Below are positions 47,246 through 60,388 of a stretch of DNA of 64,000 bases, piece after piece. The notes beneath the pieces are model-generated. The model made no database searches. It saw nothing but the letters and a program-made list of their open reading frames with translations, and was not told the origin of the DNA. A program made the position numbers and the translations under genes. Positions within the stretch are counted from its first letter, which is position 1. Each line of letters starts with the position of its first letter. The DNA is from Pratylenchus scribneri (lineage: Eukaryota; Nematoda; Chromadorea; Rhabditida; Pratylenchidae): the NCBI GenBank assembly GCA_030063045.1, contig JAQSEB010000090.1, positions 1,116,001 through 1,180,000 of the forward strand. Direction: 5' to 3'.

Positions 47246-50200
47246 TCAAATTTTTTTGAATGCATCCGCCAAATTTTTCACATCCTCTGCATTGGCACGA
47301 TATTGGCCAGCATGCTTTTGCAAAGCCATTTTGAATGTCATCATTATCAGATCCTTTATTTGGCATTTGGCCAATTCCACTTTGCGTTTTGTCTCATCCG
47401 ATTCAAATAAGGCAATGCATTTTCCAATATCTTCCCTAACGAGTTCAATTTCGGCCAATTTCAAATTGCCCAATTTGATGGCTGCATCAGGCACCCAAAT
47501 TCGTTCATCATTGAGAAGAATGCCATGTCTCATTAGAATACCGGCAATTCGTTTTTCCTTATTTTTCCAAGCGGCCTTGTTGTTGAAACTAAAAATATTT
47601 TAAAAATATATCACATTATTATATTCTATTGCAATAAATTTTTTTAATATTCCAGGCAGGCACGTATCCAGGATTTTCGGATGGGGGGGGGGCACCCATG
47701 TAAAAAATTTCTAGGCGGGGTACGCATGTAAAAAAATTTGCCAAAGTAAAAATTTTAATACAAAAATTGGCCCCGCAGGGTAAAATTTTGGCCAAAAATG
47801 GCCCCGCAGGGTAAAATTTTGGCCAAAAATGGCCCCGCAGGGTAAAATTTTGGTCAAAAATGGCCGCGCAGCGAAAAATTTTGATCAATTTTGGACTACA
47901 GAAGGGTCCCCCCTTTACTTTTTTTTCTTCCACTTCCCCCGATGGGGGGGGGGGGGGTACGTACCCCGTGTATCCCCCCCCCCCCTAAATACGTGCCTGA
48001 TTCCAGGAACCTTTTTAGCAATATGTGTGTAAACTTATTTTTTTATATAAAAATATTATTTCATTTTCTCGAACAAATTGAAATATTTAATTTTATATTA
48101 TTGGATGTTTTTTTTAAAATTATTAATAATTTTTAAAAATAAAACTGTGTTAATTAAATTCATTATTTAGAAGTAAAGAAGCTAAACTGTCAAAAATCTA
48201 TTTGAAATGCTTTGCTTTTTTATCTAATATTTGTTCTATTTTGTTGAATATTTTTTAACATATTTTTATATAATCCTTTTAGCTATATATGCTAACTTAC
48301 ATTTCTTTAAATCGTTCCTCCATAGTTGGTAGATTTTTGAGAATGAAGGCATTCAAATTGTTTCTTATTTCAATATATATTCCATCGAGTACATTCCCAA
48401 ATTCAGCACCCATATCCACAGCAGTATCACTAAGTCCTGCCATCACATTTGCACAAAAGCCATCAATGCTTTTACGTTTTGTCTCAATCGATTTGCCAAC
48501 AATTTCCTCAACCGTATCTTTTACGGCCAAAATACCGCGTAATTTGGCATGCATCATCGATTTCGGTCCAAAATTTGTTTCCATTTTTGCATTGATATTT
48601 TGGCCCAAATCTTTGACCATTTCCTCAATATTTGAAGTGAAGAGTTTGTTCCTATCTGTTATAATTTATAAATATAAATATAAATTGGTCAATTTTTTTG
48701 GGCAAATATTTTCATTAAGTAAAAAATAATCAAATAAAATTATTTTTTTTTTCAAAAATTTTTTATTCTCAAAATTATTATCTCTTATTTTGTTCCTTTT
48801 TCAAAATAATTTAAAGAATGTTATTAAATTCTTAATTTATTCCTCAAAATAAATTCGGTACTTTTCGATTATCTGTAATTAGATTTTTTGGTTCACCATA
48901 GAAAGCTAACCGTAACCCTTATGGTTCATCCGGTCTAGGATTAAGATCTATATCATTCGATGTAGTGTTAAAAAGTCTCTAGACATTTAGAGGATAGAGA
49001 ATCATCTCATGTATCCGTAACTCTAACACTGATCATCTATAGGGGGCCTTTTATTTCTAAAACATCTGGTATAGTCTACAGTACAGATAACAACCGATAG
49101 GTACTATAAACATGTTTAAAATTAATATAATATTCTATCTAAAATGCTATAAAAAACAAACTTAAATTATTACCAATTGTTTCCTGTATCACAATATTTT
49201 CCATTGATCTCTGGAACAATTGATTCAATCCAACAGTGGCAAATTGCCTTTGTGTCCCGCTGAGTTGACCCAAAACAAGTTCTAGTATTCTTTGCATTTG
49301 AGGATATCGGCGCATGAGGAAGCGGCCAAATGAGAAGATTAATGTTCCGGAATATTCAACTGCCTTTTCGCGAAAATAATCATTCCAATTTATAGTGTCA
49401 TCGCCATTGGCTACCTAAAATAATAAATTTTATTTTGTTGAAAGTTAAAAAATTTTCAATTTAACATAGACACGAAATTATATAAATTTGGAAAATTCTT
49501 TGCTTACTTTAATAATAATTATTATTATATAATATACTTTTTAGACTTTCCAAAATTCAGCAGCTTTCCTAGGGATTTATTTTACCATAATAATTGGTTA
49601 TGAGAATATAATAGACTAATTATCTTTGTAAAAAATCGCTTTAAACAATTGAAATTACAATATAAATATTTATAATTTTTTTAGATTACTATAGAAAAAT
49701 ATTTTTTAATTTTTATGGAAGAAATAAAAATTTTTTGAATATAAATAAATTAATTTTATAAAAAAATTATTACTAATTATTAATCGTTTTTTTTTAAATT
49801 ATACAAATATTATTTAATAAATAATAAGTGATCTTATTGAAATACTATGGAAAGATAAAATAAAACTATTTACCGCAATGCCTTTTTGAATGTCCTTGAG
49901 GCCATTTTCAAATAATGCTAAAGCTAGGTCTGGCCTATAACAACACAAAGCAACAACACCCAATCCAACCTTAATATATTATATAATTAAAAAACATTTA
50001 AAAATGTAAATAAATAAAATAATAATAAATTCACCTGAATTACTCCAAGCGCAATGAGCGCAATTCCTGACCAAAAAGAGGGTTCAACTTTTTGATAGCC
50101 ATGATGAATTTGGGCGGTTTGCCTCGGGAATTCATATCTCTCTTTTCTTCTTCAGTTTGTTTCCTTTTTCGTTCATTTTCATTTTGCCCATCCTCATCCT

Positions 50201-53200
50201 CTTCCTCATCATACTCATTTTCATCCCTTTTTTCATTATCATCTTCGTCTGCATCATCGTTTACATACTGAAATTTTGATTATTTTCATATTTTAGGGTT
50301 TTAAAAACCTTCTGGCCCTTTCATTTTTTTATATTTATAAATAAAGGTTAAGTAAAATGAACTTTTCAAAAAAGATAATTTTAAAATGTTGAAGGATTCG
50401 CATTTTTAAGAAAAAAAAACTTGGCCAAATGGACAATTATATCATTTCCTAATAGCTCTATCTTTGCCAATCCTAAATTTTACTAAAATTTAAACACTTT
50501 TATGGACAAAATATATGGTCTTTAAATATGTCAATTTCAAACGAATGCCATTATAAATGGCATCATTAATTATTTTATAAAATAGTTTCTTTAGTATAAT
50601 TTTATTGAGCATCAAATTGAACATTTCAGATTAAAATCATTTAAAATTAATAAAAAATTTTTCACAAACCCGTTCAATTCTGATTGTTTGGCCTGCTGGA
50701 CAATTTCGAGCTCTTTCAATGTTTTCCATCATATCATGTTGCCATTCTTTTAGCTAGGGTTGCGCCCCCGAAGGTCGGGGGTGAGTTGGACGGGGACGGG
50801 GGTGATCGGGGATGGCACCTTCGGGGACGGGGACGGGGGTGACCTTGACGGGGACCCCCGCGGGGATCCCCGCGGGGGTACGGGGGTGATCTAAATTTTT
50901 TAAAAGGCCTTATTTTTCAGACAAAAAATTTTCTGAAGAAAAATTTACTAAAATTTCAATAAATTATAAGCGTAAATATATTTTACATCGTCATTTATTC
51001 CAATTTCCTATCTAATTTCTTCCGCAATAAAACCAGATTTTGTTGGTTCCAATTGAAAATCATCCAAATTTGCTTTTACAACTAAAATTTGACGGAAGTT
51101 TCTTGGAAAACTTTTAAATAAAATCAACTATATGGCGAGATATGATGAAGTCAGATTCTTGTTTCCTAAATTAGCTATAGGAAGTGATTTTCGTAAATCT
51201 TTGATTGGGAATTGCATACTTAATAATAGAAAAGTTTAGGTTGAGATCATTTCTATCTCGGCTATTTCCGTATCAGCAATTTTGACGAACCATAGTTCAT
51301 CAATCATCATCCAAATAACCAATCAGAATGTTTAAAGTGCATCTTATAGCCCAATTATTAGCTATCTATTGATATATTGTTCATAAAAAACTGTAATGTT
51401 TTGGCTAAGTTATGGCCATAAATACAAAAATAAAGGCGGTTTTTCAAAGTTTTTGGACAAAAATTGGACAAAACTTACATATTTAGATAATCAACATACC
51501 AATGGATAGCCAATATTAGGGCTATTAAACTTACTTTAGATCTTTTAAATTGTTTAATTGGGTGGCGAGCTGCAACTCGTCAAATTCGCTGACTGAGATG
51601 GAAGTGGCGAGACGGAAATGTCCCTCGCCGAAAAAGTTTCAATAGCCTTGCAGCGAAAAATATTAGCCAGATAAAGCCGCGCAGCGAAAAATTTTTACCG
51701 CCCTACAGAAATCTGCACAAAATTTCTTTATCTTATCCCATTTTCCTTGAAAAATCCAATAATATGGGGTGCATGTTCACCCCCGTACCCCCGCGGGGGT
51801 GAGCTTTCGGGGACGGGGATTTACGGGGATGGACCTTCGGGGACGGGGACGGGGGTGAGGCCCAAAATCCTCGGGGATCCCCGTCGGGGGTGGCCCCCGC
51901 GGGGCCGGGGGCGCAACCCTACTTTTAGCAATTCCACACGTCGCCTAATTTGTGCGGCCCGTTCACTATCAAATGATCGAATATTTCCAATACTGTAAAT
52001 GAAAAGAAAAATTTATAAACGATTTTCAATAGAATTTCAAAACTTCGATTTTAAAATTAGATTCTATAATCTTTAATTCATTAATGTGAGTAAACTAATT
52101 TTAGCTTAAAAACCGAAACCTACTCTACTGATTTTGGATTTTTGCTTTTTAAAAAATTGAAAAAAATGTTTGAATTGTAAACAATTAAAAATAAAAATTA
52201 CTCTTCGAAATTGTTGATAGATATTCTTTTTACTATTTCTGAAATTTTCATATGATAATTCGTTTTTTTTTTGGTAGAAACCAAAACATTTAAATTCGAT
52301 ATCTTATTTTTCATTTTTTATAAAAGGATTACTTTTGATTTAATCAATTAATTAATAAATTAATAAAAAAATTTTTACTTAATGTTTTCTGTTTGCTGTT
52401 GAATATTGTCCGTTGATGAACATGGATTTGTTAATTCAGCAGCGGCGGATGTTGATGCTTGATTATTTTGTGTTGTGCCAATCGAAGCCACTCCTTCGAC
52501 AATTTGTTCACCTTGAAGCAAATCAATTTCCGTATTGGTTGCTTCCACTGCCTTTTGCATATGCTCAATGAAGGCCGCTCTGAATCTTTGAGATTCTTGT
52601 GAATCATTATTGGCCACAATAAAATTTTGTTCGCTCCGAATGACGTCATGCATTGCGTGTGTGGCATAGCCAAAAGATTTGAATATTGGCTCACGGCTGG
52701 TTGCTTGTTGGATCAAATTTTCTGTGTCCTCCAATTCTACTTTGCTATCATCCTTGGGGAAAAAAGAATTTCGTCAAAATAATTTATTTAATCATAGATT
52801 CCACTTTTAATCAATATATCAAGTGAAAATTAACTTTAATTTTAACAAGTTTTTTTTGATTATATAGTAGTATTAATTATGATATTTAAATTAGATTTAA
52901 AATTAAATATAATTGGAAGAAAATTAAATAAGTAATGACCAAAAAAATCGGCGACAAAATAGGCAATATTTTGGATTTTTTTTTTATTTTTTGGCTATAA
53001 TTTCAGGTCCGAATTATGTTTTATTAAAACATTTTGATATCAAAATGCTCAATGGAAAGAGTTATTTATTTTACTAAATTGATTAAAAATTGTAAAAAAA
53101 TTGAAAAATTTTAAAATTTTGACAAAAAATTTGGGTATTAAGTCTAAACTTCAAGTTGGATTCTCAATTAAATTTTTTTAAATATATTTAATAATTTTAC

Positions 53201-56200
53201 ATTTGCTCGGTGCTTCCGTAGGCCCAAATTGTGTTGCGCTTGTTTGAGCATGTAAACAGAATTTTTCAAATAATCGCCCTTTACTGCTCGCTTTTTCTGA
53301 GTCAAATTTTCTCGCAATTCATTGATGAGAATGTCGGCCATATTAATACATTTTTCCGCATTCGCTCCATCTTGTGAAAAAAAAGGTAAATCAGAATCTT
53401 TTTTATTACAAAATTAGTAGTCGATATCAGAATTTTGAGTAAAAAATTAATTTTTTAAAGTTTTCTTCATAGAAATTTTAAAATTTTTTCAATTTATAAA
53501 ATAGTAAGTTCTAAATATTATATTTAATAGTTTTAAAATATTAATGCCTTGGAAAATTGCGATTTTAATTACATTTTAGAAAAAAAATTTATTTTGACTG
53601 ATAAATTTTTGGATTATAATTCTAGAAAAGAACGGGGATACTGGTATTGTTAGCCGCATACTTATTGGGATAGATCAAATAGAATCATATTTAGTATATT
53701 AGGATAAAATCAACACAATTATAAATAAGTACAATTGCTACATGCTATTATCGTTTAAAACCTAGACCAATTAGTATGATAGTAGAATAAAAACTTATCT
53801 AATTCATCGATAATTTCTTTCAATCTTATGCCCCAAAGTTCCTCATTTTGAAGGCGTAATATATCCTGATCCTTCATTGTTTTGATCATTTCCTCAGTAA
53901 AATTTGCAAATTTTGCAAAAATTTGGTCTCGCATTATCCATTTAGGCAATTTTCCTTTTTCAAATGTGTCCAATTCCTCTTCCTCAGACATGTCCCTCTC
54001 AACAATGACATTGTCAAATTCCCAATAGCTGGGATAGATCACAGCTTGATCATTTTCACTTCGTCTACATAAAATCATTTGACATTGCCCTGGGCGTCCT
54101 TGACGAGCAGTTCGTCCATAATTCTGAAAATAAATTTAAAAATGATTATACTACATTCATATTTTTGATTTCTTCTTAAATTTCTTAGAATTTTAGCGTT
54201 TTATTCTATTTTTTAAAAGTCAAATTCGAATCAATCATTTCGAAAAAAAAATATTAATGAAAACATAATGATATTGATTTATTCCAAAAAATATACATTA
54301 GATAAAAATCTCTAAAAAAAATATTGTCAAATACATCATTCATTATGTCTTAATTAATTCGATTTCTATTGATCTAAAATATGTGGATATAAATTAGATT
54401 ATAAATAGAGTCAAAAATCGGTTTTACAAAGTTATTTAAAATCCGATTTCAGTTTTTTCGAAGAAATTTCGGTTTTAAATCATCGATTTTCTGAAAACGA
54501 GACCAACTTTGCATAAAGTCACAAAATTACATATTTCATAGTATATTTAATCGATGGTCTATTCGATATGGTGAATTTTAAGAGATTATATTAATTTTGG
54601 CCCAAGTTAGAAATTTGAATTTTATAATAAATCATAAATTTGTACAAAATTACAAAAAACAAACCTGCATTTGTACGCGCATGTTGAGTGGCAAAAATGT
54701 GACCAGAACAAAAAGCCCGCCTTTATCGTCCACCCTGTCCGATGTGATTATATCAGTGCCTCGGCCAGCCAAATTAGTCGACAAAATAATTGATCCTGGC
54801 TCCGCGCATTTCTCCATTTCTTTTTTCTGCTCCAGCGAATCATCATCACTGTAGATGCGAATGCCTTTGGCTTCTGATTTGCTCAATTTTTGGGATAATT
54901 CCTTTCGCAATGTTTCCACTTGATTCACTGTCTCACTGATTACTAAAATTGCGCGGCCTTCTTTCACTGTTTTTTCCACCTGTGTGAATGACAATACTTT
55001 ATTCCATGTCGAATGAATATATAAATTTTACTAATGTATATTGCTTAAAAAATTTTAAAATTTTACGTTATAATTATCTCTAATATAAAAAGGCTATTTT
55101 TGGATGATAATTTTTAGATTTTTCGATCATAAAATAATAATTCTAAATGATTTTTCCCAAAATATTCAAAAATTAATTATCATTATTAATAATTTAAATT
55201 TAATACTATAATTTATACTAAAAAATTCTACCAGGAATATTAATAATTAATTTTAATTATAAGAATTATTAAATTCTACAATTTTTATTATCAGCTAATT
55301 AATTAATTCTAAAATTTTTGTCAAAAATTTTCAAAATTTAATTAATTATATTATGGTCAATTATTTTTATTATAGATTACGAAAATTATCTATTAAATAT
55401 TTTAATAATTTTATTGTTTAACTTAGTGGATTTTTAATATTATATTTTTTATATATATCATATTAAATAATATTATATTTTAAAATGATTTATTCTCTAA
55501 CCCTATCAATAATTGCGTTGAGCCAATCTTTTCTGTTTGCAAGCAGAAGTCCTTTCAACTCTTCAAGTCTTTTCTTCTTGAATGTTGGTATTGAAACCAA
55601 TTCAACGGGATAAAGTCTCTTTAAAAATTGTTGAGCCGGTTCTGAGCCAAGTGTTCCGGTTAGCCCATAGATATTCGTTCCGTATCGCTTGAAATATTCC
55701 AGATTTGAAGAGAACAATGTCACAATGCTCCCTTTCCTTATTTTTAATTGATGCTTAATCTCCAAAAATTCGTGCAACTGAAATGGGGATTTGGAAGAAT
55801 GACAACAGAAATATGTAATAAATAATAATAATTTTATTTTTGTACTATTTAGCATTTTTAAAGCATTGAAAATGAGAAGCGTCGATTTTTTTTTCACTTA
55901 ATACCCTATCCCCCGAAAACTTTAACCCTATAACCGGATGACCCATGAGGATCATTTTATCTTTTCCTAATTGAACTAAAAACCTAAAAAATGTGCCCAG
56001 AGATAACCGATAAGTACACAAATAATTTTTATTGAGATCCTCTCATAATTAACCATAACTACAAAAAAATTATCTCTAAAATGATATATAAAATTTTTAA
56101 AAAGAAGTAAAAAAATATGTAGAATTGTCGTAGTGACTAATTTTCTTACAATCCTCTATTGTATTATTTTTAAAAATATATTCTTTTTAATTTATATCTC

Positions 56201-59200
56201 AATGGCATAATTATATGAATACAAAATTCTTACACCATCTGAGTATCGGCTTTGTTGCAATGTTGTGCCAGTATTTTTAAAATCCAATATCTTTATGCAT
56301 TTAAATCCATGTTCATCTTTCGTAATTTTATAATTGTTTCCCTCTTGCATGCGAAACGCAGTAACCATAGAATTAGCCCATTTCTTTGTCATTGAACGAG
56401 CAAATTCTTTCAAATGTTCAGGAATGGTGAGACGAATCTAATTGTTTCAAAATTAAAGAATGGAAAATTATTCATATTTGAGCAAATTATTTGCGAGAAA
56501 TCAAATTAAATTTAAAACTTTTAATTTTCAATTTTTCTTAATATTTTGATTCAAGAAATCTAATATACATTTAAATGATTAGAATAGTTTAGGGATTCGC
56601 ATAAAATATATTTATTGAATGTCAACAGATTTTGCTTTAAAGATTAAAAGAGCTTTGTTATTTATATAGGCTTTATTAAAACCAACTACCCACTAAAAGT
56701 TTATAAATACTATTTCGCCATAGAATTAGAAAAATATAAACAGAGAAATATTTTAAATTTGGGTTAAAAATAAATATAAGTTTACGAGTATCACCAGCAT
56801 GGGTATTAGGGCCAGAGTTTAGGTATTTGCTCTGTTTATTTCGGTGAAATTATATATCATATTCAGTTTTAGTTAGATAATTTTAGGGTTAACAAAATTT
56901 TAATTGAAATTTTGACATTTAATAAATATTAGATCCAATTTCTCGACAAAATAATCATTATATGACAATAATTTCACTCAAAAGATTAGCCTTACTTGAT
57001 TGTCTTGTGAATCGATGGCGTCTAACATCCATTTCTCCACAATATCAATCATATTGCGACATTTGAAACGATGGACCAGTTGTTCGCCAGTTTCCGAATC
57101 AATTTTGCGCAGCTCATAACAATTCTCTTCAGATTTATGCACAATTTCGGACTGCAATGCTTGAAGTGATATCCAAAATTTCCAGGCCATCTCCATGAAA
57201 CCGTGCAATAATTCAGAGCCGGGCACCTGATGTGAAAGCATCAAAATTCGGCCACTGGTGATATCGTCGACGAGCATACTGTCCACTTCGTCAACAATTA
57301 TAATGGCATAGGGACGATCGCAGCGGACATTCTAATAAATATTTAATATAATTTGTAGATATAAATTGGAAAAAAAATAAAAAAAACAATTTCTTATAAT
57401 TTTAAAATTCAATTTCAATTCAAATTGAGTCCTTGAATAATATCTATTAGTAATAAAAATATTACCGGAAATTGTTATAACAATTTCATTTGAAAGATGT
57501 GTTTGAATTAAAAATTAATTGACTAGCATATCGAAAATCCCCTAGAGCAAAAAAAAATGACTTTAATAATCAGTCATACTTTTAGTTCTTTTTAATTTCA
57601 ATTCTCTAATAATTCCCCATCCTTTACTTTGAAGATCCGCAGCTAGTTAGCAGAGTGAACTTTAAAAAATTGTATTTTCTTAGTTCCCTAAAGCTCTATA
57701 AAATCCGTTATAATTGTTCAAAATGTCTACAAAATAAGGAGTTAGACTCCTAATTTTACAAATTTTTGGAAGTTGAAAAATAAATCCAATGGGGAATTAA
57801 AAAGGTTTTTTTTAGTTTTATAAATGCCAATTCCACAATAGGGCCAATGTGGTCAATTCCACAATAGGGTCAATGTGGTCAATTCCACAATAGGGTCAAT
57901 GTGAGCGTTTTCGAGTTCTAATAAATCAAAAACCGGCTTTAGACCCTACAAACCTTATGCCATTTTGTTGTTCTCATCGATAAGCATCGATTGATATATA
58001 ATTTGTTATTTTTTCTTCCAAAATTAAAGAGTTAAAAACCAAAGACTAAAAATGGTTTAAAATTACATTTTAATATTTGGCCATAACTTGACATTTTATA
58101 TACCATTCGATGCGTCTTGATGAGATCTACAAAATTGTATAAGGTTTGTAGGGTCTAAAGCCGGTTTTTGATTTATTAGAAGTCGTAAACAGTCACATTG
58201 ACCCTATTGTGGAATTGACCCCGGACGGTTTTATAAATATAAATTTTATATTGGTAATGCTGAATAAAAATTGAATTTTCTATAATTTATTTATTAATAT
58301 GCAGTAATAAACAAACATCGCCTTGAAGAAGATCAAGCATGTCCCCCTGGAATGATCCCAAATCTCCGTAGATTATGTCCGCTTTGTAGGGCTTTTGGCG
58401 TGCAGCCAATTCCATTCGGCGTGAAATAATGTTGTGCGCCACATTCAATCCCAGCATCGAGTAAAATGCACGACGCTTTTTGTCTCGTGCATCACGGATG
58501 GCCAAAATTTTGTTGCTGGTAACAATGTCAACCTGTGAATTTTAATTAATTATTTTATAGACAAATAAATTTGTCTTATTAGCAAAATAAATTCGAAATA
58601 TTTTGAGTTTTTTTTTGCTAATTTAGTGGCTTAATAGATTTATAGAAGAATAGATAAAAATTTTTATAATTATTTTTATTAAAATCTGAAGGAAAAAGGA
58701 AGCTTTCTAAATTCATTTACTTAAAGGATCACTTAATTTTGTGAAAAATATTTTTATTTATTTACATTTTAAATATTAAATACATTTATTGTATTTTAAT
58801 GATATTTTTATAATTTTTGAACATAAATATCAGGGAAAATATATTTTTAAATTTGATTATTTAACAATTGTTATAATAATTAAATAAATAACAATGATTT
58901 TTTCTCTAAAATTCATACCGTTTGCTTGTTGCCCCCAGCTATTGTCAGAATTGCTGCATGCATGGCAATTATTGTTGTTTTGCCTTCACCCGTTGAAACT
59001 TGTATCAATTTACCCGTTTCTTTGCTGGATAAAAGCTCAAGAAGGGCAATGAGTTGGGCATTCCGTGGTTTATTTCCTTTATTTTAGAAAATATTATGCA
59101 ATTTATTTAAGAAAAATAAATTTAATTGCTTTTTAATCATTAAATTTTCCAACCTGTTGCCAAAAAATTAGCCCTCGCCACAACTGCAATTAGCATCGAG

Positions 59201-60388
59201 TCAAATATTCGTTTTCGATATTCGTCTGAGGTTTTCTCCAATTTTTCATTAGATTTGCTAGAATTCCCATTGCCCTTATCATCATCATTCCCTGGCCATC
59301 TTTGTCGAAATTCCCTAGCAAAATTGGTGATTTTCCCAGCTTCCCATTGCGCAATTTGCCCATCGGCTTCATCAATGCAAGCTATCATCAATTCAAGCCA
59401 ATTACGGTGCTCTCGTTCAATAGCAGATGTTCGCCCTTCAAACATTTCATCCAAAAATACATCAATTGCCTTCTCTTCTGGATCGCGTTGAAATTCGTTG
59501 CCATTTTTACATAATTTCTTATTATGTTTATCACAGCTAACATCGGAATCATCTAAAAAAATATAAAAAATACAATTCCAGAAAAATTTCAAAATATTTG
59601 TATGTTAATAGTGAATTGTTTTTTAGGAAAAAATTAATAATTTCATTTATTTTTATTTTATTTTCATTCTCAATCGTTCATTTGATGATAAGAAATTTGA
59701 TGAGCAAAACAAATTTTATGCATGAAATAAAAAAATATTCAAATTAAATATAACTTTAATTTGAGTAGATTTTATTCGATTGGTAAAAATATAGTTGAAA
59801 AATTATGTCCAAAAAGTACCAATATATATCAAAATCAAAATTTTTTTTTAAAAATATTAGCCAATTTTTCTGACCTAATTATTTAATAAAAGTTTTATTG
59901 ATGCTTAAAAGATTGCTAAATTTTATTGTTTTATTGACGATACTAAAATTCGAGTGGCTAATATCGGATTAATCAATTTATTCCTACAGTAAATAAAATG
60001 ACAAAAATATCATAATGGAATAGGATTCATTTGCTCATTTAATAATTAAAAATTAATTTTGCATAATTGATAGTCTATTTTATATTTTGTTTATTTAAAA
60101 TTAATTAATTAATTTTTTTTATTAATTTTAATCCTCACAATCGGAAATATCCACCATGTCATCATCATCTAACAATGCCCGTTCGATTGCAGCCAAATCC
60201 TCCGGCGACAAATTATCATCACATCTGTTTCGCTTCTGTTGAATGCCAAATTGCTGGTAGTAATTGTTGCTTGTTGATGCCGAATTTGAATTCCTTCTTG
60301 ACTCATCCCCTTCAGCAACATTAGCCACCTCTTCATTTAAAACTTTGAGAATTTCGGCCAAATCCTCAGGCGAGATATTATCGCTCAT
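47246..60388 (-). CDS. SecA-like ATPase/helicase, about 17 exons
   Basis: Start 60388 (MSDNISPEDLAEIL), stop 47246. Exons on the minus strand: 60139-60388, 59154-59552, 58919-59076, 58317-58532, 56996-57331, 56234-56437, 55502-55777, 54665-54981, 53799-54123, 53201-53370, 52379-52752, 51923-51992 plus 50670-50753 (split by a transposon), 50035-50267, about 49874-49970, 49172-49414, 48304-48651 and 47246-47596. SecA motor motifs occur in order: QVSTGEGKTT (Walker A), IIIVDEVDSMLVDD (Walker B), YGLTGTLGSE, STNLAGRGTDI and YGRTARQGRPGQ. SecA normally drives protein export in bacteria and plastids; an animal role is unknown. No C-terminal zinc tail is seen. Instead there is an acidic stretch, a hydrophobic segment (SGIALIALGVIQ-VGLGVVAL) and helical exons. 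Weak points: the 53.8/53.4-kb junction phase and a frame change inside exon 50035-50267. Confidence 0.75.
47657..47999. mobile_element. hAT-like MITE, CAGGCACGTA ends
   Basis: CAGGCACGTATCC and ATACGTGCCTG are inverted ends. ATTCCAGG flanks both sides (47649-47656, 48000-48007), a perfect 8-bp duplication. The interior has G9-12 and C12 runs and three 31-bp units containing GGCCCCGCAGGGTAAAATTT. It shares CGCGCAGCGAAAAATTT with other elements here. It lies in the last intron of the SecA-like gene. Confidence 0.9.
48857..49103. mobile_element. GGTACTTAT-family MITE, diverged
   Basis: Left GGTACTTTTCGATTATCTGT and right ACAGATAACAACCGATAGGT are inverted ends. The interior has GTTCATCCGG and ATCATCTCATG as in the 42.67-kb relative. 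It lies in an intron of the SecA-like gene. Confidence 0.65.
50755..51921. mobile_element. hAT-like element inside a SecA-like coding exon
   Basis: The ends are TAGGGTTGCGCCCCCG and its perfect 16-bp mirror. CTTTTAGC flanks both sides (50747-50754 and 51922-51929), a perfect 8-bp duplication. GC-rich self-similar arms (GGGGACGGGGACGGGGGTG) enclose about 880 bp of AT-rich DNA with no transposase. The CGCGCAGCGAAAAATTT word links it to the elements at 24.98 and 47.66 kb. Removing the element and one duplication restores one continuous reading frame. Confidence 0.93.
55905..56018. repeat. Half copy of GGTACTTAT MITE
   Basis: Contains CCGGATGACCCATGAGGATC and the right end GAGATAACCGATAAGTAC. 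The left end is missing. It lies in an intron of the SecA-like gene. Confidence 0.65.
57829..58225. mobile_element. Foldback element with triplicated left end
   Basis: Inverted halves match the 15.55-kb family (CCGGCTTTAGACCCTACAAA, AGATCTACAAAA). The left end carries three tandem copies of a 26-28-bp unit with CAATTCCACAATAGGGTCAA. The right end is TGACCCCGGACGG. It lies in an intron of the SecA-like gene. Confidence 0.8.

Follow-up and report, generated by a model that had tools for sequence, protein, structure and literature searches.

The closest described relatives of the insertion examined here are maize Ds and other nonautonomous hAT elements, including hAT MITEs, which in the available text of PMC3260210 have short inverted ends, 8-bp duplications, subterminal repeats, transposase-coding relatives and near-identical copies. 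According to two studies cited there (Dennis 1988; Wessler 1991; PMC3260210), one maize hAT element, Ds1, is removed from exons by splicing, in the manner of an intron. Introners offer a second comparison: in the accessible part of Gozashti 2022 (PMC9860276) they are gene-enriched families of near-identical introns, among them a DNA-transposon type with terminal inverted repeats and target site duplications, whose splice sites come partly or wholly from the duplication and which in some cases adds codons. For new Caenorhabditis introns, the available portion of PMC9169325 reports polypyrimidine tracts in 168 of 168 and no exon insertion or deletion in 166, and states that no source sequence was found for the 168 in that study.

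We analysed a 64,000-nucleotide stretch of the Pratylenchus scribneri genome, called the window, in which a transposable element lies inside a coding exon. An earlier sequence-only reading had proposed that the element may act as a newborn intron. The results instead make it probable that the hAT insertion disrupts a gene copy already in decay, and is not a new intron. It shares the features listed above for Ds and the hAT MITEs; it differs from maize Ds in its TAGGGTTGCGCCCCCG ends and its very G/C-rich subterminal repeats. With Ds1 it has in common that a hAT-type element with potential splice sites sits in an exon, but splicing is reported for Ds1 in the text available of PMC3260210 and is hypothetical for the window element. 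A further difference from Ds1 is that the duplication supplies one base of each splice dinucleotide. Introners, as described in the same part of PMC9860276, are already families of introns, whereas splice potential here needs a chance GN6G target. By the tests made the window element is a hAT, and it would be an introner candidate only. None of the literature matches listed, a scope that left out most subscription papers, describes a nematode hAT intron. The features of the locus are collected in Table 1.

Table 1. Features of the interrupted gene and its element, in window positions (a slash marks an exon-intron boundary)
Feature	Position	Strand	Details
Nonautonomous hAT element	50755..51921	.	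Length 1167 bp; perfect inverted repeats of 16 bp at the ends, G/C-rich repeats in subterminal position
Target site duplication, copy 1	50747..50754	+	CTTTTAGC; minus strand GCTAAAAG
Target site duplication, copy 2	51922..51929	+	CTTTTAGC
Proposed GT...AG intron	50754..51922	-	Donor AAA/GTAGGG, score 4.58 (plausible); acceptor GCGCAACCCTAG/CT, score -5.21 (poor)
Acceptor-like site inside element, possible cryptic site	50933..50944	-	ATTTTTCTTCAG/AA, score 8.25, best in element
Interrupted exon, 5' part (E12a)	51922..51992	-	Acceptor CATTTACAG in front
Interrupted exon, 3' part (E12b)	50670..50754	-	Donor CGG/GTTTGT behind
Next exon, E13	50035..50267	-	Lacks 1 bp near 50100 that the paralogue has; stop codon in frame at 50042-50040
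SecA-like motor exons E2-E9	53762..59552	-	Walker A QVSTGEGKT, DEAD-like VDEVDSM, P-loop_SecA
Exons E10-E16, including the interrupted exon	48300..53370	-	Conserved in the paralogue; either the C terminus of the SecA-like protein or another gene

The insertion and its empty site

The extent of the element and the CTTTTAGC copies on either side of it are as the sequence-only reading had given them, and so is its translation of the minus-strand exon, which runs as ...RRVELLK into the element and continues as LKEWQHDMMENIERARN past it. With up to three mismatches allowed, the only two places in the window that carry the end motif are the ends of the element themselves. Shuffled sequence gave an expectation of 0.03 occurrences, which rules out chance inverted repeats as the origin of the ends.

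When each flank was searched against the organism's own genome (227 Mb, 276 contigs), a single further copy of the interrupted exon came up, on contig C27; the second flank search also returned two additional short matches elsewhere, of 53 and 35 bases. The C27 matches of the two flanks overlap by exactly 8 bp (C27:316292-316299), and the C27 exon has a single 8-bp copy, lacks the element and forms one unbroken reading frame. Because the C27 sequence reads straight through without the element, the exon is real and the element is an insertion. It also bears out the earlier claim that taking away the element and one 8-bp copy restores the frame. The same reading had named a frame already broken in a relative without the element as evidence that would speak against it; the frame of the C27 exon is intact. 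In the window copy, a message that retained the element would, by computed translation of the minus strand, run into a stop after 33 codons of the element, at about 51823, and the frame of this gene copy would thereby be broken.

The element family

Membership in the hAT superfamily was judged from ends, duplications, target choice and coding relatives. The short terminal inverted repeats expected of a hAT element are present as the perfect ends of the window copy. Among 30 loci taken without a filter on the duplication, the 26 insertions for which both ends were found all had perfect 8-bp duplications (8/8 bases); L025, L027, L028 and L029, with one or both ends missing, were omitted from these counts. 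hAT elements prefer nTnnnnAn targets. The targets of this family show that preference, with a duplication consensus of nTTTAAAn; of the 160 symmetrised sites, 130 have T as their second base, and just as many have A as their seventh. A sister element of 1420 bp, L057 (C13:386568-387987, in locus C13:386540-388020), has the same ends and a duplication of its own, ATTTTAAA, and encodes a hAT dimerisation domain (Dimer_Tnp_hAT, PF05699) at 53.5 bits, which is a domain fragment and not a whole transposase. The perfect duplications, the nTTTAAAn targets and the domain carried by L057 between the same ends make the assignment to nonautonomous hAT elements well supported. The domain has at least 150 matches in the genome; a complete transposase-bearing copy with these ends was not found among the few candidates examined. 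The element was probably mobilised by a hAT transposase supplied from another locus.

The family is large and its copies are alike. The exact 12-base end occurs 595 times in the genome, which corresponds to about 300 elements, and 102 intact short copies measure 489-515 bp. Beside the window copy there are at least 22 whole-length matches at 99-100% identity, from a DNA search in which the best 40 of 952 candidates were scored. Average divergence among 24 long copies is 0.63%, and the window copy shows zero differences from L002 and L023 over the aligned bases. Judged by these comparisons the insertion is young, and the near-identity of the copies rules out an old repeat. The ends, the duplication and the empty site show that a nonautonomous hAT element recently inserted into the coding exon and produced the 8-bp duplication.

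The core of the element (window 51239-51630; element positions 485-876) is also found elsewhere in the genome without the ends, at about 81-83% identity, and the places with such a stand-alone core have weaker matches on the opposite strand too. It is perhaps an older nested foldback element.

The interrupted gene

The sequence-only reading had called the interrupted exon SecA-like, a label that could not be established. A SecA-like motor gene with introns does lie upstream in the window of this nematode (59552-53762, minus strand). Insects, fish, ciliates, rotifers and endosymbionts have SecA-like proteins that match its exons E2-E9; identity to the one with the highest score is 37%. For residues 640-958 of the model, covering the motor end and E10-E12a, none of 3023 candidates qualified as a relative at E<=1e-3, and E10-E13, compared locally with the 120 relatives listed, matched nothing. 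Inspection found no in-frame join of E9 to E10 with canonical sites in either gene copy, and in both copies an in-frame stop follows E9. The interrupted exon may therefore belong to a separate gene, as far as the sequence goes.

The frame is also disturbed beyond the insertion. E13 is 233 nt long in the window copy and 234 nt on C27; because of the 1-bp deletion and the stop in this exon, even perfect removal of the element would leave the frame truncated. The deletion was seen in one assembly and may be a sequencing or assembly error. Skipping of the interrupted exon would shift the frame, since its length in the paralogue, 148 nt, is not divisible by 3. The C27 paralogue (L037, 6674/6675) has no match to window 58983-55306, which contains the end of E3 (the Walker A exon) and E4-E7. 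Motor exon E5, the one motor exon searched by itself, had no matches elsewhere beyond two that were partial and diverged (58% over 43 aa; 41% over 64 aa). Both gene copies thus look damaged, and a plain disruptive insertion would then be easy to tolerate.

How far the decay has gone bears on a reading that overlaps the preferred one, in which the window copy is a pseudogene that is not expressed, so that the insertion would be without any RNA consequence. The deletion and stop in E13 point this way, as does the paralogue, which is without several motor exons, so that the gene family seems to be decaying. Constraint on the coding sequence points the other way: between the window copy and C27, dN/dS is a low 0.20 over the 870 codons of the shared exon segments and 0.16 over the 513 codons of E10-E16 around the element, both with the frame-shifted end of E13 left out, and with the same omission there is no stop in any of the 11 compared exon segments in either copy. 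The E10-E16 value also speaks for the interrupted exon being coding. We consider a silent pseudogene a serious possibility, somewhat short of an even chance. On the preferred reading, the insertion most likely does no more than disrupt the window copy, whose next exon is frame-shifted as well.

Splice sites and predicted fold

For scoring candidate splice sites, simple position scores were built from a small set of sites in the same gene region, 12 donors and 13 acceptors picked by inspection. Some sites inside the element score like true ones: the acceptor before 50932 is accompanied by donors at 51698 (8.57) and 51534 (6.78). These sites raise the possibility that the element is imperfectly removed or exonised, giving mostly frame-shifted messages, an outcome that again overlaps with disruption of the gene. 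The case for it consists of model scores, and we rate such splicing as possible but rather unlikely. If the disrupted copy is transcribed, any removal of the element from its RNA would most likely be partial, through cryptic sites of this sort.

The sites proposed for a newborn intron scored unevenly. True donors, scored leave-one-out, span 0.2 to 9.6; the proposed donor falls inside this span and outscores 88% of the GTs in the window. The acceptor lies under all 13 true acceptors (-0.9 to 8.9), at the 34th percentile of the AGs in the window and at rank 43 of 58 among the AGs of the local stretch. RNA folding predicts pairing between the inverted ends, which would place the donor's UAGGG and the acceptor's CCCUA inside the base of the stem and both flanking Gs just outside. 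The acceptor score and the modelled stem would count against efficient removal at the proposed sites, and they are not decisive.

Geometry of the insertion and target choice

On the minus strand, GT falls at 51922/51921 and AG at 50755/50754, and removal between them adds CTAAAA in frame, as the sequence-only reading had described. This arrangement follows from the ends of the element, which start with T and finish with A: with any GN6G target, one edge will read GT and the opposite edge AG. Because the duplication is 8 bp long, removal would leave six extra bases and keep the frame.

The frequency of such targets was taken from 80 distinct sampled insertions. A two-sided copy entered the sample only with a match at 6 or 7 or more of its 8 duplication bases; half of the sample (40) was known from one flank, where a single duplication copy was read, and L057 was excluded. 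GN6G targets on either strand made up 11 of the 80, where base composition predicts 12.15; the probability of 11 or more is 0.69. The GT...AG geometry is thus at chance level for this element family and not special to the window copy. The geometry expected for intron birth by a DNA transposon is present, then, but at chance frequency in the family, and it was set aside as support for an intron. The favoured splice-compatible targets that mark introners are likewise not seen in these counts. The GT...AG framing of the window insertion is mechanical, a product of T...A ends and a GN6G target, and arises in about one insertion in seven.

Insertions in possible coding exons

In the sample of 80, half of which was known from one flank as above, four insertions have some evidence of lying in a coding exon: the window copy, through its paralogue; L004 and L021, through a Pfam domain in the flank; and L042, through an open frame of 47 + 336 aa across the insertion, together with a same-strand open frame about 300 bases upstream that holds an SH3BGR domain. 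The 338-aa frame of L042 itself had no Pfam match. In L004 (1493-2675) the same element sits about 10 bases into a BTB exon, at a sense-strand GN6G target, and three empty relatives match at 88-91%. Being so close to the exon start, the L004 element could be absorbed into the preceding intron. L021 is inserted in the frame of a ligand-gated channel domain. The flanks of L009, L012, L015 and L026, the left flank alone of L044, and nine open frames known from one side had no Pfam match and were not counted as exonic; the domain search did not include open frames of L003, L007, L010, L011, L050, L090, L095 and L096 or second frames of L073 and L091.

Sense-strand GN6G is present in the window copy and L004 and absent in L021 and L042. 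Two of four compares with 7.6% expected from base composition (P=0.03), and without the discovery case one of three gives P=0.21. The excess is a hint in favour of introns, from too few cases.

The idea that the spliceosome removes 51922-50754, leaving CTAAAA as two extra codons and an exon product in frame, can now be weighed. Its proponents could point to the exact geometry and frame, the acceptable donor, the shared sense geometry of the element in the BTB exon and the splicing of Ds1 reported in the text seen of PMC3260210. The transposon in a real coding exon, the empty site and the frame-keeping GT...AG all stand; the action as an intron does not fare well, given the poor acceptor, the predicted stem at both sites, the chance geometry and the broken frame of E13. 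Such an intron would also have neither a polypyrimidine tract nor an indel-free exon, unlike the Caenorhabditis introns described in the available part of PMC9169325. We regard it as very improbable. If it were nevertheless spliced, it would be an early-caught intron birth by a nematode hAT, with empty site, source family and target rule in one genome; if it is not spliced, it is an ordinary recent mutation.

A broader version, in which the TAGGG-ended hAT family is a nascent intron-maker in this nematode and its exon insertions, such as the window copy and L004, are removed from RNA and tolerated, also seems very improbable. If true, every GN6G exon target would become a GT...AG intron adding exactly 6 nt, the frame would be kept unless the six added bases contain a stop, and the family would provide a source for new nematode introns, whose origin was reported as not found for Caenorhabditis in the same available part of PMC9169325. 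The 595 exact ends and the named exon insertions form a ready test set for splicing of GN6G targets.

Apart from the interrupted gene, the window encodes an Srsx-type chemoreceptor domain at 27 bits (cut-off 24.1). Srsx is a nematode family.
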